IMG/VR virus record: IMGVR_UViG_3300035698_016797
Span: 1 to 64,000 of that record
From: a virus
Direction: 5' to 3' (one strand)
DNA length: 64,000 bases
The notes under the pieces were generated by a model. The model was not told the origin of the DNA, searched no databases, and saw nothing but the letters and a program-made list of their open reading frames with translations. Of this stretch, positions 12,535 to 56,740 are shown piece by piece. The first letter of the stretch is position 1, and each line of letters opens with the position of its first letter. The translations under genes were made by a program, and so were the position numbers.

Positions 12535-13155
12535 ATGTCAGAGACACTGAACAAGGCACTCATGGAAGCAAGCGACGGAGTCGCTTCGCGTCTCGCACAG
12601 ATGCTCGCTGAGGGGACTTTGTCCCCTTTCATGGCCGTCCTTGTGGGCGGGCATGTGAACTTGGGACTTCGTCCCAAGATGGCACTTACCGGCTCCAAGG
12701 GAGCCAAAACGCTCGTAGTGGCAGAGCCACTTCGGATGAGCCTCTGCGAAGGCACGTTTCTCGCCAGCCCGCAAGCACAGGCACCCGAACTGGCAGAGCC
12801 AGTTCCAGCAGGGACAATTATGTTCACTCATGTGAAGCACCCGGCTTCCGACCGTTCCGGTCGGACCTACGTCTCCTCCTGCCGGACGGATCTGGACGGC
12901 ATGGCTCCCACGTTGCTCGCGGTGCGCAACCGGGTCAACGAAGCGTTGACCGTCGCCTTCCCGGACAAGGTGGCTGTGGCTGGCAAAGCCAGCGGCTCTG
13001 CCGATGTGTTGTCCCAAGTCGCGGCTGATCTCGCAAGCGCGAACATCGCCGTTCGGGAAGTGGCCATTGACCGTGGTTTTGCCCACGGAATGACCCCTGA
13101 CGCTATGAAAGCGATCTTGACACGGCACGGTCACGACGTGAGCACGCTTGGGTAG
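12535..13155 (+). CDS. Ala-rich protein encoded by hairpin-dense, G+C-rich DNA
   Basis: 206 residues starting MSETLNKALMEASDG after AGGAG with nine-base spacing. The protein is Ala/Val/Gly rich; I recognise no family. A short Cys/His content and AVLVGGHVNLGLRP in the first third suggest a folded domain. The DNA is clearly richer in G+C than its surroundings and carries at least nine perfect short inverted repeats with three-base loops (see separate entry). Because the region is G+C-rich, long frames also exist on the - strand, but only this frame has a good ribosome site and runs into a perfect terminator. It appears to be its own transcription unit, possibly acquired. Confidence 0.65.
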   Translation: MSETLNKALMEASDGVASRLAQMLAEGTLSPFMAVLVGGHVNLGLRPKMALTGSKGAKTLVVAEPLRMSLCEGTFLASPQAQAPELAEPVPAGTIMFTHVKHPASDRSGRTYVSSCRTDLDGMAPTLLAVRNRVNEALTVAFPDKVAVAGKASGSADVLSQVAADLASANIAVREVAIDRGFAHGMTPDAMKAILTRHGHDVSTLG

Positions 13156-39784: not shown

Positions 39785-40417
39785 ATGTCACAGAACGTAG
39801 CAGTATCATTCGGCGTCAACAAGATGAACCTGGAAATCGCAGGCCAGAGCCTCGCCACCGTCGCGCATCAGCTGAAGAGCCTCTTGGGGCTTGCCGGTGG
39901 CGAAACCCAGAAAGTCAATGGTCGCGAAGCTGCCAATGACTACATCCTCAAGGCTGGCGACAGGCTTGAGTTTGTGAAGGTCAGTGGTCGCAAGGGTGCA
40001 AACGTCTCCGTGACGTTCGGCGTCAACAAGATGAACCTGGAAATCTCAGGCCAGAGTCTGGCAACGGTTGCTCACCAGCTCAAGTCCCTCCTGGGACTTG
40101 CCGGTGGTGAGACCCAGAAGGTCAATGGTCGTACAGTGGCCAATGACTACATCCTCAAGGCTGGTGACAGGCTTGAGTTTGTGAAGGTCAGTGGTCGCAA
40201 GGGTTCGATCGCCGTCAGTGCCGGTGTGAACCGTATGGACCTGGAGCTGGCTGGTAAGACTGTCAGCCAGGTTCGTAAAGAGCTGGCAAGCCTGCTCCAC
40301 ATCGACAATACGTGGAAAGCGGAAGTCAATGGTGCCACCTGTGGTGCCACCAAACGCCTCCGCAACGGTGACAGTCTGGAATTCATCAAGGATTCCGGCA
40401 CCAAGGGTGATGGCTGA
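39785..40417 (+). CDS. Triple-repeat ubiquitin-like protein
   Basis: 210 residues made of three tandem beta-grasp units of 69, 68 and about 73 residues. Each unit has VN[KR]M[ND]LE, a helix (SLATVAHQLKSLLG), VNG, and [LR].[AN]GD.LEF.K, ending SG[RT]KG. The pattern is that of PRTRC system protein C/ThiS-like ubiquitin relatives, which also end in GTKG. Units 1 and 2 are almost identical in protein and share long identical DNA tracts. After unit 3 only DG follows the KG, so a JAMM protease could expose KG ends, as in poly-ubiquitin. Modifier function is inferred. Confidence 0.8.
   Translation: MSQNVAVSFGVNKMNLEIAGQSLATVAHQLKSLLGLAGGETQKVNGREAANDYILKAGDRLEFVKVSGRKGANVSVTFGVNKMNLEISGQSLATVAHQLKSLLGLAGGETQKVNGRTVANDYILKAGDRLEFVKVSGRKGSIAVSAGVNRMDLELAGKTVSQVRKELASLLHIDNTWKAEVNGATCGATKRLRNGDSLEFIKDSGTKGDG
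39811..40410 (+). repeat. Three tandem Ubl coding repeats
   Basis: Units start near 39811, 40018 (207 bases on) and 40222 (204 bases on). Units 1 and 2 share the first 30 bases and the last 70 bases nearly exactly, but differ by synonymous changes in the middle, which suggests gene conversion or selection on the protein. Unit 3 is more diverged. Confidence 0.85.
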
Positions 40418-40448
40418 AACCATCAAATGCTATTGATGTAGCATTAGA

Positions 40449-40488
40449 GTCGGAGGGGGAATGTTCCCCTTCCGACTTTTTCTTTCCA
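40449..40488 (+). terminator. Intrinsic terminator after the triple Ubl
   Basis: GTCGGAGGGGGAA pairs with TTCCCCTTCCGAC (one G-U), followed by TTTTTCTTT. It may lower expression of the downstream E2/E1 genes relative to the Ubl. Confidence 0.88.
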
Positions 40489-40519
40489 AACTGCACTAAA
40501 ACATGGAGGAATAACCAAC

Positions 40520-41251
40520 ATGGCGGCTCCAACCACAGTTCGAACCTACATTCGTATGGAAGGTGAGAGCACTGAACTAGTAGAGGAACGAGTCAAAAAG
40601 AGCTTTGAGACTGAATCTTTTCTTGAAGCACTGAGGCTCGAAGCTGGACTATCGTCCGGTCTCATTCCTCAAGATTGCATCTTCTTCTTCCGTAAACCAC
40701 CAACATCGGCAGAATCCGGTGATGATGCAGTTTACGTGATGGAAAAAGAACCTCGTACGGTCACTATGCACTTTCGCAATTCCGGTGCCAGCGGTAGCGG
40801 AACCGTTCATCCACTCAAAGTGTCTCTTCCGTACTGTCTTTTCTTCATACCCGTTAGAGGTGGAAACATACAGGACATTTGGCCAGTATGTTCAAAGCAG
40901 CGCATCAAAACCATAGATGATCCCATCTTTGTGTTGCCGATACCAAACGTGTACGATTCGGGCCATGGAAGAATTTGTGTTGGAAATCTTCGCATCGACA
41001 ATGAGAGTCCCATCCATGTGAGACTTAACAAGTTGGTGTCGATGGTTTTCACGTCTGAGTTCAACTTGGATTTGACCACGATCTATCCTTCTGTGATGGT
41101 GAAGAAGTCTGGTGAAGATCCATCCATTTTTGGATGGGCACACAAGTCGGAAGGCAATTCGTTGTTTGGATGCTCCGATGAGGTAGAGTACCTGCCTCAT
41201 AATTACGGAACATTCAAAGGTCTAATGGGGAATATAGGATGTCAACTGTAA
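40520..41251 (+). CDS. E2-like protein (PRTRC protein B-type)
   Basis: 243 residues. The middle TVHPLKVSLPYCLFFIPVRG and then VLPIPNVYDSGHGRICVGN follow the PRTRC_B/Prok-E2_D pattern (P...F......W......PL...P..NV...G.[VI]C.G), which is described as an E2/UBC-fold member. Cys153 in RICVG is the conserved residue in the place where PRTRC_B has VCLG; whether it forms a thioester is unknown. Located between the Ubl and the JAMM/E1 genes. Homology is by motif, not by search. Confidence 0.65.
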   Translation: MAAPTTVRTYIRMEGESTELVEERVKKSFETESFLEALRLEAGLSSGLIPQDCIFFFRKPPTSAESGDDAVYVMEKEPRTVTMHFRNSGASGSGTVHPLKVSLPYCLFFIPVRGGNIQDIWPVCSKQRIKTIDDPIFVLPIPNVYDSGHGRICVGNLRIDNESPIHVRLNKLVSMVFTSEFNLDLTTIYPSVMVKKSGEDPSIFGWAHKSEGNSLFGCSDEVEYLPHNYGTFKGLMGNIGCQL

Positions 41252-41595
41252 AGCAGTTTGACAGAATATTGAGTGCAACTGAAAACATTCCAACCGTCAA
41301 TGCTCAACCAATCAGTTCCGTGTTTGGGGTTTTGACAAAAAACAGTGTTCCTCGGTTGCTGACAATTACCGGAAATGCGACAACTATCATGTTGGCGCAG
41401 TTTTTACTGTTCTTGCGCAGACAGTTGAAGCATGTAAAATGTTTGATGGTCCTTGACAACAAAAACAAGGGTCAAGTAGATCGCGCATTCGTTAAGGCTG
41501 AAGTGATTCAGAGAGACAGAGATGCTGCAAAAGCCATTGCGGCCAAGAAAAAAACCAAGGGTAAGACGGTCAAAAAGACCAAGGAGTTGTTCTGA
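41239..41595 (+). CDS. Hypothetical protein of the Ubl locus
   Basis: 118 residues, basic C-terminus (KKKTKGKTVKKTKELF). RLLTITGNATTIMLAQFLLF looks like a buried alpha/beta core. Overlaps both the E2-like and JAMM genes, so it is tightly coupled. Not recognised. Confidence 0.65.
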   Translation: MSTVKQFDRILSATENIPTVNAQPISSVFGVLTKNSVPRLLTITGNATTIMLAQFLLFLRRQLKHVKCLMVLDNKNKGQVDRAFVKAEVIQRDRDAAKAIAAKKKTKGKTVKKTKELF

Positions 41596-42680
41596 TGAAC
41601 AGATTCGTGACGTCCCAAGGCATCCCAATCATTACAATGGAAGATGGAGATGATGTGGAGTCCATTACGGACCCCATCTGTTTCATCGTTTCATCCAAAG
41701 GTTGCTTCGTAAAGAAGACCAATCGGTTCTACACTTCCGTAACCGCAACAGGAAAAGACGGAATCAGCGTGCTTGGAGAAGTCAAGCCGTTCGTATCTTT
41801 CGCAGTAACAAAGCTGCCGCTTCCGACATTCCGTGCCATTCGCCAGTTCTTCACTGATGTCTACAAGAAGATGCAATCTGAAGTGGCCATCATGTTGTAC
41901 TACGATTTCGATGCGAAGTTGTGGTTGTGGGTGGTTCCTGAGCAGAAGGTAACTGCCGCCAGTGTTGACTATGAGGAGACCGACAAATCCATCATCATCA
42001 ACCAGGACAACGAACGTATTGAAGGTCCGGTTCCAGACAGCTTTACGAAGCTCGGAAGTATCCATTCTCATGCAGGAATGGGAGCCTTCCATTCTGGTAC
42101 TGACAACGCTGACGAATTCCACTTCGACGGCCTACACATCACCATCGGCTCGTTCAACAAGGCAAGCAGTGGAGATTGTTCGTACTCTGCACGCTGGATC
42201 ATCGCCGGAGAAGAAGTGAAGACTGAAATCACGGAAGTGGTTGCAGATCTCGATCCTCCTGGAGAATACCCCGAAGATGCTCATGAAGCAGTAAAGAAGG
42301 GTACATCTGCCAGTCGCACTTATGGATCAGGACGTTCCATTGGTGCCGGTACAGGAAAAGGAGGTGCGGGTCAATCGGGAATAACAAACCCTACCCAGGC
42401 GGCGAAAGGCCGCCAGACGACGCAGACGACTCAGAGTGGCAAGCCTGGTACGAAACCTGGGGAAGGTGCGACGGTGGATACAACTGGTAAAGCTCCAGCG
42501 ACTGGTAAAGCTCCAGCGACTGGTAAAGCTCCAGCGACTGGTAAAGCTCCGACAACTGGGAAAGGTCCAGTGAAGGGTTTGACGGCAGGTGACACTCAAG
42601 CAGTGACTCCTCTCGTTCCGGCGAAAGGTTCAGAAGAAAAACCGGGCCAGGAAAAAAAAACCAAGACAGAGTCATCGTAG
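41595..42680 (+). CDS. JAMM/JAB metalloprotease-like protein (PRTRC protein A-type)
   Basis: 361 residues. GSIHSHAGMGAFHSGTDNAD holds the JAMM zinc site H157-x-H159-x7-S-x2-D170; E96 may be the catalytic Glu. These enzymes cleave isopeptide or linear bonds after ubiquitin-like proteins. The last 150 residues are low-complexity, ending in four near-copies of TGKAPA and a charged tail, probably a flexible adaptor. AAGGAG precedes the ATG, which overlaps the previous stop. A natural substrate would be the KG-ended triple Ubl. Confidence 0.82.
   Translation: MNRFVTSQGIPIITMEDGDDVESITDPICFIVSSKGCFVKKTNRFYTSVTATGKDGISVLGEVKPFVSFAVTKLPLPTFRAIRQFFTDVYKKMQSEVAIMLYYDFDAKLWLWVVPEQKVTAASVDYEETDKSIIINQDNERIEGPVPDSFTKLGSIHSHAGMGAFHSGTDNADEFHFDGLHITIGSFNKASSGDCSYSARWIIAGEEVKTEITEVVADLDPPGEYPEDAHEAVKKGTSASRTYGSGRSIGAGTGKGGAGQSGITNPTQAAKGRQTTQTTQSGKPGTKPGEGATVDTTGKAPATGKAPATGKAPATGKAPTTGKGPVKGLTAGDTQAVTPLVPAKGSEEKPGQEKKTKTESS
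42482..42560 (+). repeat. 18-base tandem repeat in the JAMM gene
   Basis: Four copies of ACTGGTAAAGCTCCAGCG (the last diverged) encode TGKAPA. Copy number could vary by slippage. Confidence 0.9.
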
Positions 42681-42747
42681 AGAATCCGGCGAGTGCGGGA
42701 ATACAATTCCTGAAAACGACTCCAGATCAGAGCAGTTCATAGAAAGA

Positions 42748-42834
42748 ATGGTCGAAAGGTTCGGCTCTGAAGTTGGAGACAATCTTCAAGAGGCTGTTGA
42801 GTTGGCACGAGCCAGCCAACAGTCAGAAGGATAG
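42748..42834 (+). CDS. Possible 28-residue peptide
   Basis: MVERFGSEVGDNLQEAVELA...QSEG, ending six bases before the E1-like start. The same frame is open for 60 more bases upstream without a good start. Weakly supported. Confidence 0.35.
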   Translation: MVERFGSEVGDNLQEAVELARASQQSEG

Positions 42835-42840
42835 AACGAT

Positions 42841-43551
42841 ATGTACAAGAATGTCATAGTTATTGGCTGTGGAGGAATTGGATCACATCTTCTTCCTCCG
42901 CTGACACGATTCTTCGCTTCAATGGAGAAAGAGAAGCGTCCCAAGGAAATGAGAATCGTTGATGGAGACAAGTATGAGCAAGGCAATGCCGATCGGCAAG
43001 AGTTTGTTGCTCGTCAAGTCAACCAGAATAAAGCAGAGGCGCAGAAGGAACGCTGTTCAGTCATTCACGAAGGAATGATGGACTACTATGCGTTCCCGGA
43101 ATACCTCGGTAGCGGCAATATTGACAGCATTATTGAAGAGGATTCAATTATCTTCATGTGTGTTGACAATCATGTTTGTCGCAGTATTGTGTCGAAACAC
43201 TGTCAAACGTTGAACAACGTTGCTCTCATCACGGGAGCAAACGAACTCACCGACGGCAACGTACAGATTTACGTCAGAAAAGATGGAAAGGATATGTCTC
43301 CTCCAATAGAAAAGAGACATCCTGAAATCAGCACGGCGAAAGATGGTGACAGATCAATGATGAGCTGTGAGGAGATTGAGAAGTTGCCCGGTGGTGGACA
43401 AATCATTCTGGTGAATGCTACCGCCGCGAATCTTCAATTTCAACTCGCTTGGGAATGGCTCTCTATCGGAAAGCTTCCTTTCGAGGAGGTATATTTCGAC
43501 GTTGAGTCAATCGGAATGCGTGGGGTGCCAAATGACTACTCCAAAAAGTAG
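42841..43551 (+). CDS. E1/ThiF-like adenylating enzyme (PRTRC ThiF type)
   Basis: 236 residues. VIGCGGIGSH (residues 7-16) is the Rossmann ATP loop; VDGDKYEQGNADRQEF (40-55) has the D..D, N49 and R52Q53 of the E1 active site; CVDNHVCR (107-114) follows. Candidate catalytic Cys176 is in MMSCEEIEKLPGGGQI, where E1 enzymes of the PRTRC group have a Cys before a GGQ. It would adenylate the C-terminus of the Ubl. Family assignment is good; substrate specificity is inferred from the neighbours. Confidence 0.85.
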   Translation: MYKNVIVIGCGGIGSHLLPPLTRFFASMEKEKRPKEMRIVDGDKYEQGNADRQEFVARQVNQNKAEAQKERCSVIHEGMMDYYAFPEYLGSGNIDSIIEEDSIIFMCVDNHVCRSIVSKHCQTLNNVALITGANELTDGNVQIYVRKDGKDMSPPIEKRHPEISTAKDGDRSMMSCEEIEKLPGGGQIILVNATAANLQFQLAWEWLSIGKLPFEEVYFDVESIGMRGVPNDYSKK

Positions 43552-46971: not shown

Positions 46972-48249
46972 ATGCTGAATCAATTGTCACGACAGTTTGG
47001 AGAGCTGCCAGTAGAACTTGTTGCTAAAGATCAAAGCGACATTCCGATAGTGTCGTTTATTCAAGCTAGGCATGGGCCGGTATTGCCTGGTCGAAATATA
47101 AACGAGAAGGCATTTGGCCAACTACTTGAACTTCTGCTCGAAGGCAAGATTGTCAGAGTTAGATGTAATATAGATGCTTTTGCTCAAGAGATGGAGCATC
47201 TGAGAAAACTTGCATCTAAAAATGTTCTCATGGTATCTGCTACGGATATTTGGGAACATAATAGAGGTGAAGTTTACAAATTCAGGTTTAACGCATCAAG
47301 CGAATACTATATGGGACTTGATGAATTAGTAAATCCTGTTGATATAATTGCTTCTGTTCTTGGAGTGGAGGGAGAACTCCTTACAAGTCTTATGGCAGAT
47401 ATTTCGTCTCACTACAATCGCTTTCCATTGACAAAAAGGGATGGTTCGCAAAGATGGATTAACGCTCCAGACGATGATCTGAAAGGGGTTCAGAGACGCA
47501 TAATGAACAGAATGCTTTATCGTGGATGGGCAACTCCATGTGCTCACGGATTCATTCATGGAAAAAGTATTAAGACAAACGCAGAACGTCATGTTGGAGC
47601 CAAGGTTGTCGTCAAAATGGACATATCCAAATTCTTTGACAACATAGGAATTGACAAACTTAATACAGCCTTTGTTCCTCTGCTGAAAGCAGAAGAGCTT
47701 TTCACAATCAATTTTATCTCATCGTTGTGTACTCTCAACGGGGTCACCCCACAAGGAGCACCAACGAGTCCCGCACTATCAAATCTCGTGGTAAGAAACA
47801 TGGACTTTGCCCTCATGGGTTTAGCCAGAAAACATCACGCAGTCTACACGAGATATGCTGATGATTTGGTATTTTCCTCGAAAGATAATCGTGCATTACC
47901 ATCAATCATCCCTTTGGTAATGAACGTTGTCAACTCGAATGGGTTCCGAATCAACATGAGAAAAACCGGAGTCTTTCGCGACGGTGGAAGAATGCCGGTA
48001 ACCGGACTGGTAATCAATAAACATACAAACGTTCCTCGTAAGGAGCGTTATAAAGTACGTGCGGAGCTTCATAACATTGCAACTGGAAGAAAACCTGCAA
48101 GCGAAGAGGATCTTCAGCGTCTCGCCGGAAAGGTGGCGTTCATCAATATGGCGAATCCGCAACAGGGAGCACGTTTTGATAGTTTGATGACAGCAGCAAA
48201 GGCTGGTGCCGTACAATCAACGGAAGGTGCGGAAAACAATGACAGTTGA
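46972..48249 (+). CDS. Retron-type reverse transcriptase
   Basis: 425 residues. From residue 145 the RT core shows: RWINAPDDDLKGVQRRI, AHGFIHGKSIKTNAERH (N203-A-x-x-H207), VVKMDISKFFDNI (D217), GVTPQGAPTSPALSNLV, YTRYADDLVFS (YADD 295-298), GFRINMRKTG and PVTGLVIN (VTG 343-345). NAxxH and VTG are the diagnostic retron motifs; QGxxxSP excludes diversity-generating elements. The first 140 residues are an unrecognised N-terminal domain. AAGGAG starts the gene. It would copy msr-msd RNA into a branched RNA-DNA molecule. No ncRNA lies directly upstream; see the four RNAs downstream. Confidence 0.92.
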   Translation: MLNQLSRQFGELPVELVAKDQSDIPIVSFIQARHGPVLPGRNINEKAFGQLLELLLEGKIVRVRCNIDAFAQEMEHLRKLASKNVLMVSATDIWEHNRGEVYKFRFNASSEYYMGLDELVNPVDIIASVLGVEGELLTSLMADISSHYNRFPLTKRDGSQRWINAPDDDLKGVQRRIMNRMLYRGWATPCAHGFIHGKSIKTNAERHVGAKVVVKMDISKFFDNIGIDKLNTAFVPLLKAEELFTINFISSLCTLNGVTPQGAPTSPALSNLVVRNMDFALMGLARKHHAVYTRYADDLVFSSKDNRALPSIIPLVMNVVNSNGFRINMRKTGVFRDGGRMPVTGLVINKHTNVPRKERYKVRAELHNIATGRKPASEEDLQRLAGKVAFINMANPQQGARFDSLMTAAKAGAVQSTEGAENNDS

Positions 48250-48436
48250 CAACATTACAGTAGACAAAATCCCAGACGAAATTGAAGAATGCTTCAACCA
48301 AGCAGGAATCACACTGGAACAATTAGACGAAGCTTCTCTGCTTCTGGAAGAAAAATATGGAATCACGCTAGCACTCACAACCCACTTCGACAGTAAAGAA
48401 GAGGAACATATTGTTCTAGCCAGACCAATTCCGTAA
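48239..48436 (+). CDS. Small acidic protein after the RT
   Basis: 65 residues from MTVDNITVDKIPDEIEEC. The start overlaps the RT stop by eleven bases, so it is coupled to the RT. Acidic, helical. Possible RT partner; function unknown. Confidence 0.62.
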   Translation: MTVDNITVDKIPDEIEECFNQAGITLEQLDEASLLLEEKYGITLALTTHFDSKEEEHIVLARPIP

Positions 48437-48547: not shown

Positions 48548-48663
48548 CGTTCTTTTATATTAATTCCTCTCATGCATATGCTATCAGCTCTGATGTTTCA
48601 TCTGAGTGTAGTTTACATTCACAGCGTAGAGCGACACGGGGTCGCCTCCTGCTGTTAGAACGA
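48547..48663 (+). other. Structured gap, possible fifth, diverged ncRNA locus
   Basis: TCGTTCT (48547 area) faces AGAACGA (48658 area). Between them lie CAGC followed by a GATG-TTT-CATC hairpin, a TGTA-GTT-TACA hairpin, and ACAGC..GCGAC-ACGGG-GTCGC..GCTGT. The last looks msd-like. But the ATT-GG and AAG-AAT signatures of the four clear loci are missing, so I do not count it with them. Confidence 0.35.
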
Positions 48664-48697: not shown

Positions 48698-48892
48698 ATG
48701 TCAGATAAAGAACACAAAACGACAGAAAAGGTATTTTTAATACCCGAAGAAGAAGTGGTTATAATGACGTCAGACTCAAGCTCTGAGGTTGTACAAAAAC
48801 CAGAAGGTGTTTCTGTAAAATTGATTTCTCCAGAAGGAGTTACGGTTACAGAGGCAGACGCCAAAGATACGATCCTTCAGATAGAGGGATAA
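48698..48892 (+). CDS. Small acidic protein before ncRNA 1
   Basis: 64 residues from MSDKEHKTTEKVFLIPEE after AAAGGAAAG. Beta-like repeats (SVKLISPEGVTVTEADAKDT). Ends eight bases before the first ncRNA locus. Function unknown. Confidence 0.6.
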   Translation: MSDKEHKTTEKVFLIPEEEVVIMTSDSSSEVVQKPEGVSVKLISPEGVTVTEADAKDTILQIEG

Positions 48893-48900
48893 CATAACGC

Positions 48901-49071
48901 TGTAGATTGGTTTTAGCCAGATGTTTCATCTGGGAGATTATTACGTGGGCATCATAGTGAATACTACAAGTATTCACATTAAAGCCCCAGAGAGAGCCTA
49001 TCACGACTCGGCAGTCGTCCAAAGACGACTTTAGTCGTACCGGCTCACTCTCGGGGCTTAAAGAATCTACA
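48901..49071 (+). ncRNA. Retron-like ncRNA 1 (candidate msr-msd)
   Basis: a1 TGTAGATT (48901-48908) pairs perfectly with a2 AATCTACA (49064-49071). After a1 comes GG, so G48909 is the predicted branch G. msr-like hairpins: CCAGATG-TTT-CATCTGG (48917-48933) and GTGAATAC-TACAA-GTATTCAC (48957-48977). msd-like helix: AAGCCCC.GAGA.GAGCC (48982-48998) with GGCTC.CTCT.GGGGCTT (49042-49059), enclosing two ACGACT/AGTCGT hairpins. Template end AAAG precedes a2, so the predicted DNA begins CTTT. It sits between two genes with no terminator of its own. Confidence 0.72.
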
Positions 49072-49096: not shown

Positions 49097-49750
49097 ATGG
49101 AACAACAAGAAGGTAACTTGGTGCCAATCTTCTTCTGTGAAAAACTTTCCAAAGCAGAAGTAATAGCTTGGCGAAGAGTTATCAACGTAGCATATTCCTC
49201 TCTATCCAAAGAGGAAAAGAGTGTAATTCCCCCGTTTTATGTGTACTGTACAATGGTGAGTTCTCTGTATCACACCTTTAATGCACATTTACATATGATG
49301 GAAAAGATGATGGATCAGTTCGCACAGGACAAAGTGTGGTCATATGCGTTCTTACAAGATCCTGAAATACGCAATGAGAACATTCCAGAAGAAGAGTTCC
49401 AAAGAATAGTAATAGCCAATCATCGTACACACTTGACTCCAGATCTTTCTCCAGAAATGGTAGTGTTTCACGAAATGTGGCACTTCATACTGTTCAGTCT
49501 TCATAAAATTCCGTACGTAGTAGAGAACAGGAAACAAGTCGAAGGAATGTGTGACAAGAATGCAATTATGTCATACGTTAGAATGTTGATTCGCAATCCT
49601 CAATACTCCTCCAACACAGAAGATGGAGAAGTGAGGTTGCTTGAGAAAAGAGTTAGACTGTGGCGCTCCCAAATGGAAGAAAAAGACATGCCATTAGCGC
49701 AAATCGAAAACAATATGCTCAAAGGAGTAGGAGAACTTCTCAATGACTGA
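49097..49750 (+). CDS. Zinc metallopeptidase-like protein
   Basis: 217 residues. VVFHEMWHFILFS contains H125-E126-x-x-H129, the HExxH zinc site; EGMCDKNAI about 25 residues later could provide the third ligand, as in SprT/IrrE-like gluzincins. The rest is not recognised. It lies directly after ncRNA 1 and before RuvB; its start overlaps none of them. A retron effector role is conceivable, but only from its position. Confidence 0.72.
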   Translation: MEQQEGNLVPIFFCEKLSKAEVIAWRRVINVAYSSLSKEEKSVIPPFYVYCTMVSSLYHTFNAHLHMMEKMMDQFAQDKVWSYAFLQDPEIRNENIPEEEFQRIVIANHRTHLTPDLSPEMVVFHEMWHFILFSLHKIPYVVENRKQVEGMCDKNAIMSYVRMLIRNPQYSSNTEDGEVRLLEKRVRLWRSQMEEKDMPLAQIENNMLKGVGELLND

Positions 49751-51274: not shown

Positions 51275-51523
51275 TTGATCAATTGGCTTGATTCATCAAG
51301 TGTCACGTTAGTTTTCTAGTTCCATGTGCCGGTTGTTTGCAGGATTCGTAAACAGAATGGCTTTGGTTAGATTACTTGAGTGGTATATTGTGAATCGTTT
51401 GTGATGTATCATCACAATGTGACAATGTGCAAGAGTATATTTTATGTTGACTCACTCTGGCGGCCTGGTAACTTATTGTATAACTTACCAGGCAGCCTAA
51501 GATGGTCAAAAAGAATTGATCAA
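51275..51523 (+). ncRNA. Retron-like ncRNA 2 (candidate msr-msd)
   Basis: a1 TTGATCAATT (51275-51284) pairs with a2 AATTGATCAA (51514-51523); GG follows a1 (predicted branch G51285). Hairpins: CTTGA-TTCA-TCAAG (51287-51300), TTGTGATG-TAT-CATCACAA (51399-51417). msd-like composite helix: TTGAC (51447), GGC, GCCTGGTAA (51463-51471) with TTACCAGGC (51485-51493), GCC, GTCAA (51505-51509). AAAAAG precedes a2. Independent of gene frames; the following gene starts 28 bases later. Confidence 0.7.
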
Positions 51524-52204: not shown

Positions 52205-53274
52205 GTTCAGTTATAGCACCAGTGGCAACAATCGACAAAATCGAGCCACACCCAAACGCCGACAGACTCAAGCTTGCAACCGTACTAGGTTGGCAGACCG
52301 TCATTCCAATTGACAGTTCATGGAAAGAGGGAGACATCTGCGTCTTCGTTCCTCCAGACTGTCTACTTCCATCCAAGTGGGCAGAGCACTGGGGAGTGAC
52401 AAAATTCTTGGCCAAGAACAACAGAGTACGACGTATCAACCTTAGAGGAGAAGCGTCTTACGGATTTATCCAGCAGATTCCAGACGACATGTCTGTTACC
52501 ATTGGAGACAATCTCTCTGACGAGCTTGGTCTTGGCAAGTACTACCCTCCTCCTCCGAAGTGTAATGGTGGACCGAATCAAGGCAAGGGTGTGAGAACAC
52601 ATCCGTTGGTGCAGAAATACACCAACATCGAGTCCATCAGAAACTTCCCGTTCATTCTGGAGGTTGGAGAAGAGGTGGTAATCACAGAGAAAATTCACGG
52701 CTCCAATGTTAAAATTGGTCTCGTCAATGGTGAAGAGGTTGCATCCTCCATGAAGGTTCAAAGGGCAAAACCTGAGCACGAGGGTGAGTCTCCCGACGAA
52801 CTTGTCAAGGCCAATCGCTACTGGGGACCATGGTTTGCCCCTGGAATCAAGGATCTCATCTACTCCATTTACGAATCCTGCAAACAACCGGCACAGATTC
52901 TCTTGTATGGAGAGGTGTACGGATCTGGCATTCAGAAGGGATTCATGTATGGCCTAGACCAAGACAAGCAAGGGTTCCTGTCATTCGACATTTTGGTACA
53001 AGGACACTACCTTGGCTGGGAAGAGTTCCACGAACTGTGCACAACCTTCGGGGTTGGTACTCCAACCATCCTTTACAGAGGTCCGTTCATAGACCTTGCC
53101 CACATCAAAACCATTTGCGATGGCAACACATCTCTTGGTGGAGATCATGTGAGAGAGGGTGGAGTAATCAGACCCGTTGTGGAACGTCGCGCAGAAAAGG
53201 GTAACAGAGTTTGCTTCAAGTACAGAACCGACAGGTATCTTACTGGTAAGTTTGCAGACTCTCAAGACATATAG
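52201..53274 (+). CDS. RNA ligase (Rnl5/DraRnl-like)
   Basis: 357 residues. EKIHGSNVKIG contains the nucleotidyl-lysine motif K164-x-x-G; YGEVYGSGIQKG, EGGVIRPV and FKYRTDRYL are the later ligase motifs. An OB-fold-like N-terminus (IDKIEPHPNADRLKLATVLG) fits the Deinococcus DRB0094/Rnl5 family, which seals RNA nicks. Probably repairs RNAs cut by host anticodon nucleases, in keeping with the many phage tRNAs. Confidence 0.88.
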   Translation: MSSVIAPVATIDKIEPHPNADRLKLATVLGWQTVIPIDSSWKEGDICVFVPPDCLLPSKWAEHWGVTKFLAKNNRVRRINLRGEASYGFIQQIPDDMSVTIGDNLSDELGLGKYYPPPPKCNGGPNQGKGVRTHPLVQKYTNIESIRNFPFILEVGEEVVITEKIHGSNVKIGLVNGEEVASSMKVQRAKPEHEGESPDELVKANRYWGPWFAPGIKDLIYSIYESCKQPAQILLYGEVYGSGIQKGFMYGLDQDKQGFLSFDILVQGHYLGWEEFHELCTTFGVGTPTILYRGPFIDLAHIKTICDGNTSLGGDHVREGGVIRPVVERRAEKGNRVCFKYRTDRYLTGKFADSQDI

Positions 53275-55950: not shown

Positions 55951-56379
55951 TTCTCATTGGCTTGGTCCTCGGACAGCTTGATGAATCATCAAGCCGCTAA
56001 CATATTGAGGTCTCAATTCTCATCAAAGCGAGAATTGATTCCATGAAATATACTTTATTATACTAATTCCGCATTTGAATTCACAGGATGATAACTACTG
56101 AGAACCTGGAATCCGGCGTACATCTCATCTGTTAATGAGATGCTGTGCCGCCACAAGGCGGCACTCTGCCGGACACCTGGACTCAGAGTTCTAATCACAC
56201 CAGGTTCCTCCTCGAAGACTTACTGGGAAACCCAGTAAGAGCCAGCAGTTCCCTGGGGGACGCCCAGGGAAAGGCAGGCTGGACCAGGCTACACCTGGTC
56301 TGGGAATATCTTCGAGCCACCTGGTTCTGCAAATTCACAGGCTCATTAGTATATTAATGATATATTTCAAGAATGGGAA
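55951..56379 (+). ncRNA. Retron-like ncRNA 3, largest (candidate msr-msd)
   Basis: a1 TTCTCATT (55951-55958) pairs with a2 AATGGGAA (56372-56379; one G-U). GG follows a1; AAG precedes a2. msr-like hairpins: GCTTGATG-AAT-CATCAAGC (55976-55994) and TCAATTCTC...GAGAATTGA (56013-56038). msd-like region is about 280 bases of branched helices: TCCGGC/GCCGGA enclosing CATCTCAT...ATGAGATG and GCCGCC-ACAA-GGCGGC; CTCGAAGA (56211) with TCTTCGAG (56308) enclosing CTTACTGGG-AAA-CCCAGTAAG, TTCCCTGGG...CCCAGGGAA and GACCAGG...CCTGGTC. Eight CCWGG sites lie within 56105-56324. Confidence 0.62.
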
Positions 56380-56383
56380 TTCT

Positions 56384-56635
56384 ATGATTCATTGGATTGC
56401 ATACTAGTTGCATGTGTGATGTTTCATCACACTTTAACATTAACATAGAAAATAAGTATCCTTTCTCAGCAAAGAACCCACAGGGTTTTTGCTGCGAGGA
56501 TGCTTATGGCTCCTGGATGGTACTGAATTAAAATGAATTGGCAATTGATTTTAATACAGCACAATCACGCGCTGCACTTTCTGCTGCTCTACGCTCAGCA
56601 GAGTTCAGCTCTCAGGAACCTTAAGAATGAATCGT
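56384..56635 (+). ncRNA. Retron-like ncRNA 4 (candidate msr-msd)
   Basis: a1 ATGATTCATT (56384-56393) pairs over ten bases (one G-U) with a2 AATGAATCGT (56626-56635). GG follows a1; TTAAG precedes a2. Hairpins: GTGTGATG-TTT-CATCACAC (56414-56432); ATAAGTATCC (56452-56461) with GGATGCTTAT (56498-56507) enclosing CAGCAAA..AACCC-ACA-GGGTT..TTGCTG; ATTAAAAT.AATT-GGC-AATT.ATTTTAAT (56527-56555); CTGCTG...CAGCAG. It begins four bases after ncRNA 3 ends, in tandem. Confidence 0.68.
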
Positions 56636-56740
56636 ATTTTAGGAGTATCGTCTAACGAAATAGGATACTGTGGTAGCAATACCCAGAGATGCAGGACTAT
56701 CCCTGTTACTCCAACTTTAGAGTTTGTTGATTTTAGCTCC

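Follow-up and report, generated by a model that had tools for sequence, protein, structure and literature searches.

A phage retron reverse transcriptase followed by several probable templates that share recognition signals

Retrons have mostly been studied as bacterial defence cassettes that comprise one reverse transcriptase (RT) and one template, and in classical retrons the non-coding RNA (ncRNA) lies just upstream of the RT gene, which is the commonest layout and no strict requirement. In the closest known relative of the system considered here, Retron-Eco1 (Ec86), region Y of the RT binds a stem of 8 bp that ends in a UUU loop (PMC6868368). Several msr-msd copies have been described in Retron-Nex1 (Ne160), where they were interpreted as duplications and no RT lies within a kilobase of them (PMC6868368). 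This work concerns a window of 64,000 nucleotides, i.e., the whole stretch of DNA that was analysed, which starts at position 1 of a virus record of 181,030 bp (IMGVR_UViG_3300035698_016797). Since this record carries a 127-bp direct terminal repeat, the genome is probably complete. The best overall explanation of our observations, to which we give a probability of about 0.8, is a phage retron in which one RT copies several templates that differ in their msds and have their msr signals in common. This single phage RT very probably copies at least four retron-type templates, one of which is the structured RNA from which the analysis started, ncRNA 1 (Table 1). The parts of such a retron are known, and what differs is the presence of several templates per RT, their downstream position and their recurrence in large phages. 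A search of the open-access literature gave no account of phage retrons with more than one template, most subscription papers being outside this coverage.

Table 1. Features of the retron region, in window coordinates (a slash, here and in the text, marks the inner end of a1 or a2).
Feature	Position	Strand	Description
Retron reverse transcriptase	46972-48249	+	425 aa; RVT_1 7.7e-25 (assigned from sequence profiles and predicted fold)
65-aa ORF	48239-48436	+	Overlaps the RT stop; possible partner; no family above cut-off
Hairpin GATGTTTCATC (48592 hairpin)	48588-48606	+	Without complete a1/a2 frame; doubtful or decayed unit
ncRNA 1	48901-49071	+	171 nt; candidate retron-type msr-msd template
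a1 of ncRNA 1, TGTAGATT	48901-48908	+
Likely priming G of ncRNA 1	48909	+	Alternative: G48916, in UAGC
UUU-loop hairpin of ncRNA 1	48917-48933	+	CCAGATG-TTT-CATCTGG; likely RT recognition hairpin
Second hairpin of ncRNA 1	48957-48977	+	GTGAATACT-ACA-AGTATTCAC; 9 bp, ACA loop
msd-like stem of ncRNA 1	48982-49059	+	Long, interrupted
a2 of ncRNA 1, AATCTACA	49064-49071	+	AAAG directly 5' of a2
Second full unit	51275-51523	+	a1 TTGATCAATT/GG; hairpin TTGTGATGTATCATCACAA at 51399-51417; AAAAAG/AATTGATCAA
Third full unit	55951-56379	+	a1 TTCTCATT/GG; hairpin 55976-55994, AAU loop; CAAG/AATGGGAA
Fourth full unit	56383-56636	+	a1 TATGATTCATT/GG; hairpin 56414-56432, UUU loop; TTAAG/AATGAATCGTA

Judged from profiles, motifs and modelled structure, the RT gene is that of a retron. 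Its best PADLOC profile was RT_XIII (1.7e-78), comparison with PDB sequences pointed to the Ec86 RT (8e-33), and the NCBIfam model retron_St85_RT was matched at 1.7e-64, under its strict cut-off. Alignments placed NAERH (NAxxH, region X), YADD (YxDD) and VTG (region Y) at the expected motifs. The AF2 model reached a mean pLDDT of 79, with most of the RT domain above 80, and the 18 best Foldseek matches of this model in the PDB were all retron RTs; the N-terminal 120 residues or so were modelled with low confidence and belong to no family. Retron profiles and structures scored far above Drt, diversity-generating retroelement (DGR) and group II RTs, and a DGR or DRT reading of the gene was discarded because those classes rank far below retron RTs.

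The RNA itself has the anatomy that such an RT would be expected to use. The original prediction described ncRNA 1 as a retron-like structure made of a perfect a1/a2 helix, a seven-pair hairpin with a UUU loop, a second hairpin of eight pairs and a long msd-like stem. The a1/a2 helix was recovered where it had been placed, with eight Watson-Crick pairs, as were the UUU-loop hairpin, with seven pairs, and the msd-like stem, which is interrupted; the second hairpin is present, but its length is nine base pairs and not eight. The statement that Ec86 uses a UUU loop proved correct too, in line with the stem bound by region Y of RT-Eco1 (PMC6868368). With a retron RT recognised by profile, motif and predicted fold, and with an RNA that shows a1/a2, a G directly 3' of a1, short-loop msr hairpins and a long msd stem, the retron-like reading is supported. 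When the sequence was scanned blindly for an a1 with GG after it, then a triloop hairpin and an a2, exactly the interval of ncRNA 1 was returned, which fills the gap between an ORF end at 48892 and an ORF start at 49097. Its minimum free energy (MFE) is -71.2 kcal/mol, compared with -38.5 (sd 3.7) in dinucleotide shuffles (z -8.8), and none of 200 shuffles folded as well. The predicted DNA copy of 48979-49063, about 85 nt long, also folds by itself (z -7.1). The classical UAGC motif occurs at 48914-48917, six bases further in than a1/GG, and is found in ncRNA 1 only. Because GG stands right after a1 in all four units, G48909 is, by analogy, most likely the priming G; G48916, within UAGC, is an alternative absent from the original prediction. 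No orthologue of ncRNA 1 was found in viral contigs, and a covariation signal is consequently absent for this RNA.

Three further units with the same frame are present in the phage genome. All four full units lie on the + strand, downstream of the RT gene, the nearest being 650 bases away and the three others within the next 7.6 kb, and they have in common the end signals ATT/GG and AAG/AAT. A strict pattern (a1 of at least eight pairs then GG, a triloop hairpin of at least seven pairs, and AAG before a2) had four matches in the 181-kb genome, on the + strand only, and none in 20 Markov-shuffled genomes, a result that is no independent test of AAG, since this element was added after it had been sighted in the units. 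In line with this, the whole genome has four copies of the hairpin core GATGTWTCATC, always on the + strand and no further than 10 kb beyond the RT start, on its downstream side; a fifth hairpin, that of the third unit, has an AAU loop. The second, third and fourth units folded with z-scores of -5.6 (whole region), -10.1 (with a1/a2 paired in the MFE structure) and -6.7, respectively. No long local similarity was found among the units, and their msds are for this reason considered unrelated. The 48592 hairpin was rejected as a full unit, as no frame with matching ends was found around it; its region folds slightly better than shuffles (z -2.0).

It could be argued that ncRNA 1 is the sole working template of an ordinary retron with a displaced ncRNA, the others being decayed copies or unrelated structured RNAs. 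ncRNA 1 is indeed nearest to the RT, shortest, most canonical and the only unit with UAGC, the 48592 hairpin is already incomplete, and the msd-like region of the third unit, about 375 nt, exceeds known msDNA lengths (about 40-160 bases). We nevertheless consider this unlikely, as the a1/a2 helix, the GG, the hairpin and the AAG end are all intact in the three siblings, whose folding far surpasses that of shuffles, and as several intact units are also found in related phages (see below). Several templates for one RT thus remain our preferred reading.

Other observations concern the sequence of these units and of the surrounding DNA. The third unit contains, at 55995-56371, a very long and branched msd-like region with many perfect nested hairpins, which, if copied, would be far longer than known msDNAs. 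A 28-nt segment of the second unit (51325-51352) has an exact inverted match in the RNA-ligase ORF (52868-52895), with similarity ending sharply on both sides; as the match is inverted, the ncRNA strand of this unit is antisense to the ligase mRNA. A template switch, a recombination scar or antisense control are possible origins. Spacer-like targeting by the units was considered and rejected: this is the sole exact match of at least 17 bases that any unit has elsewhere in the genome, so that unit-to-genome matching is not systematic. Elsewhere in the window, at least five perfect triloop palindromes of 7-8 bp lie in about 400 apparently coding bases (12560-12960), and the noncoding segment 55000-55430 contains a tRNA-Ile (aat) call and more hairpin-rich sequence, with no Rfam match.

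Similar units recur beside related RTs. Searches of viral contigs for close relatives of the phage gave nothing with the RT by itself, with the RuvB-like or the RNA-ligase gene, or with the exact string of the hairpin, and relatives were recovered through an RT alignment only. Among the 442 relatives that this alignment retrieved from viral contigs, the 80 best were retained, and 80 RT loci from genome contigs served as a bacterial comparison set. A generic scan outside ORFs, for a1/G, a G-NNN-C triloop hairpin and G/a2, gave 25 units on the coding strand versus one on the reverse strand in a phage group of 18 loci (L018-L042), 6 versus 1 in a second phage group (14 loci), 17 versus 2 in 43 other viral loci and 13 versus 2 in the 80 bacterial loci. 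A looser scan that allowed a1/a2 mismatches (23 forward, 16 reverse) was too noisy, and the stricter one was used. Before G/a2 was made part of the scan, G before a2 was present in 22 of 25 coding-strand units and in one of nine reverse-strand units. Within the L018-L042 group, seven of the 18 loci have two to six units each, with the maximum of six in L019 and three or more in L024. None of the 80 bacterial loci had more than one unit of the G-NNN-C loop type, a limit that applies to this type because the scan detects only such loops. The matches in the other viral loci are mostly single units shortly upstream of the RT, i.e., the classical layout, as is the case for prophage retrons, and these matches act as a positive control of the scan. 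Unit coordinates in the relatives were picked by complementarity. The ends TATA/G...TAG/TATA are found in all six units of L019. In an ortholog pair of the same group (L021 and L025), the closing helix and the triloop hairpin are still paired despite changes on both sides, in a structure picked by RNAalifold from the two sequences. A quick tree grouped the window RT with other phage RTs, at weak support, and gave no support for a single clade of all multi-unit RTs. Upstream of the RT of another relative (L036, 8350-9700), a series of hairpins lies between triloop hairpins, spaced by the repeated string GGAAAGGTAGGC.

This recurrence also bears on whether the units have anything to do with the RT. 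Phage intergenic hairpins are common, and the units might have another role, as terminators, processing sites or small RNAs of the phage, and resemble retron RNAs by chance. Such a coincidence appears very improbable: the layout of a1/GG, triloop hairpin and AAG/a2 is found only near the RT, terminator prediction called no site of intrinsic type at ncRNA 1, an Rfam covariance-model search gave no match, and like anatomy stands beside related RTs with a strand bias of 25:1. Unit anatomy, confinement near the RT and recurrence beside related phage RTs therefore all favour templates of the RT.

The genes next to the RT differ between lineages. In the window, they comprise small unassigned ORFs, a 253-aa ORF without family, a 217-aa HEMWH protein and a RuvB-like ATPase, and no PADLOC effector or other PADLOC retron protein was found among nine neighbouring proteins. 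In the L018-L042 group, a MoxR/RavA-like ATPase and a ViaA-like VWA protein are conserved upstream of the RT, which is followed by a protein of about 160 aa, likewise conserved, that has no family and overlaps the RT end. In 16 viral loci (L038-L097), the RT stands in constant order between a RecJ/DHH-like gene and an RNase H gene, as if the phage supplied its own processing enzymes. In the second phage group, a RecJ/DHH-like protein and an RNase H flank the RT, which fits the known requirement of retrons for RNase H1 (PMC8989520). The window has neither the RavA/ViaA-like pair nor the RecJ/DHH-like and RNase H set. Three candidate equivalences were rejected. The AAA gene of the window, which is RuvB-like, matches the RavA-like gene of the relatives only in the generic AAA core; the 217-aa HEMWH protein showed no match to the N-terminus of the ViaA-like protein; and the protein of about 160 aa, considered as a possible RNase H, did not match the one of the second group. 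Directly upstream of the retron region, at 39785-43551, the phage carries a ubiquitin-like conjugation set with triple beta-grasp (ThiS-like), Prok-E2_D-like, Prok-JAB-like and ThiF (E1-like) genes.

As to function, the system may be an ordinary anti-phage retron that excludes competitors, with the ORF at 48239-48436, the ORF at 48698-48892 or the 253-aa ORF as its effector, and with templates that provide redundancy or several triggers. Well-studied retrons are all defence systems with an effector (PMC12548924, PMC8989520), and the RT stop codon is overlapped by the 65-aa ORF. We regard this as a serious possibility, yet not the probable one, given that the neighbours yielded no PADLOC effector and have no family, and that related phages have other conserved partners, either RavA/ViaA-like or RecJ/DHH-like with RNase H. 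A counter-host or competitor-directed role is proposed here instead, because a single code is common to several different msds, beside which no toxin of a known retron lies; counter-defence or competition between phages is a first guess, and the weakest step of the proposal.

From a mechanistic point of view, ncRNA 1 would act as the msr-msd template of a phage-borne retron. By analogy with characterised retrons (PMC6868368), we infer binding, priming and cDNA synthesis by the window RT: region Y, in its C-terminal part, would bind the UUU-loop hairpin, the primer would be the 2'-OH of the G next to a1 (most likely G48909), and copying would begin just 5' of a2 (AAAG/) and end after the msd stem. 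The product would be an msDNA of roughly 85 nt, folded as a hairpin. The same RT would serve at least three further templates in the next 7.6 kb and, as the units have shared msr-side signals and unrelated msds, one RT would thus yield a set of different msDNAs. This set of hairpin DNAs may act on host or competitor factors, as decoys for DNA-sensing defence proteins or in the exclusion of other phages. More broadly, and tentatively, with odds somewhat below even, large phages may have made of the retron a multi-template msDNA factory, in which one RT would read ncRNAs with a common msr code (a1/G, triloop hairpin, G/a2) and differing msds and would supply several distinct hairpin DNAs in the course of infection, as counter-defence decoys or competitor-directed agents, with lineage-specific partner genes. 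If the multi-template reading is true, a code between RT and template, formed by the hairpin loop and the a1/a2 ends, would have a natural use in trans, for the synthesis of a set of DNAs, and the purpose of phage retrons would become testable. It would also offer natural multi-template designs for the production of ssDNA in cells, and reveal phage lineages in which the retron is part of a conserved neighbourhood rather than passing cargo.

Compared with known systems, the closest likeness is to Retron-Eco1 (Ec86), in terms of the RT fold, the NAxxH, YADD and VTG motifs, the a1/a2 frame, the UUU-loop hairpin that region Y binds in Ec86 and an msd of similar size. By contrast, Ec86 has one template adjoining the RT and a known effector, whereas the window has at least four probable templates downstream and no effector recognised; at a1, Ec86 has UAGC and all four window units have ATT/GG. 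The presence of several msr-msd copies in one stretch recalls Retron-Nex1, but those copies have no nearby RT, while the window units have an RT near them and unrelated msds. PADLOC type XIII provides the best RT profile, yet no partner profile matched among the window neighbours tested. The classical layout, with one ncRNA shortly upstream, differs from that of the four window units, all downstream. The L018-L042 phages, whose retron loci none of the papers searched describes, are similar in having several units per RT with a1/G, a G-NNN-C triloop hairpin and G/a2, and a similar region Y. Their RT identity to the window RT is only about 30-38%, their units are found on either side of the RT whereas those of the window are downstream only, and they have the RavA/ViaA-like pair and the 160-aa protein, both of which the window lacks. 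Compared with the usual one RT and one template, the system is thus that of a phage RT with at least four different probable templates, and with relatives that have up to six.
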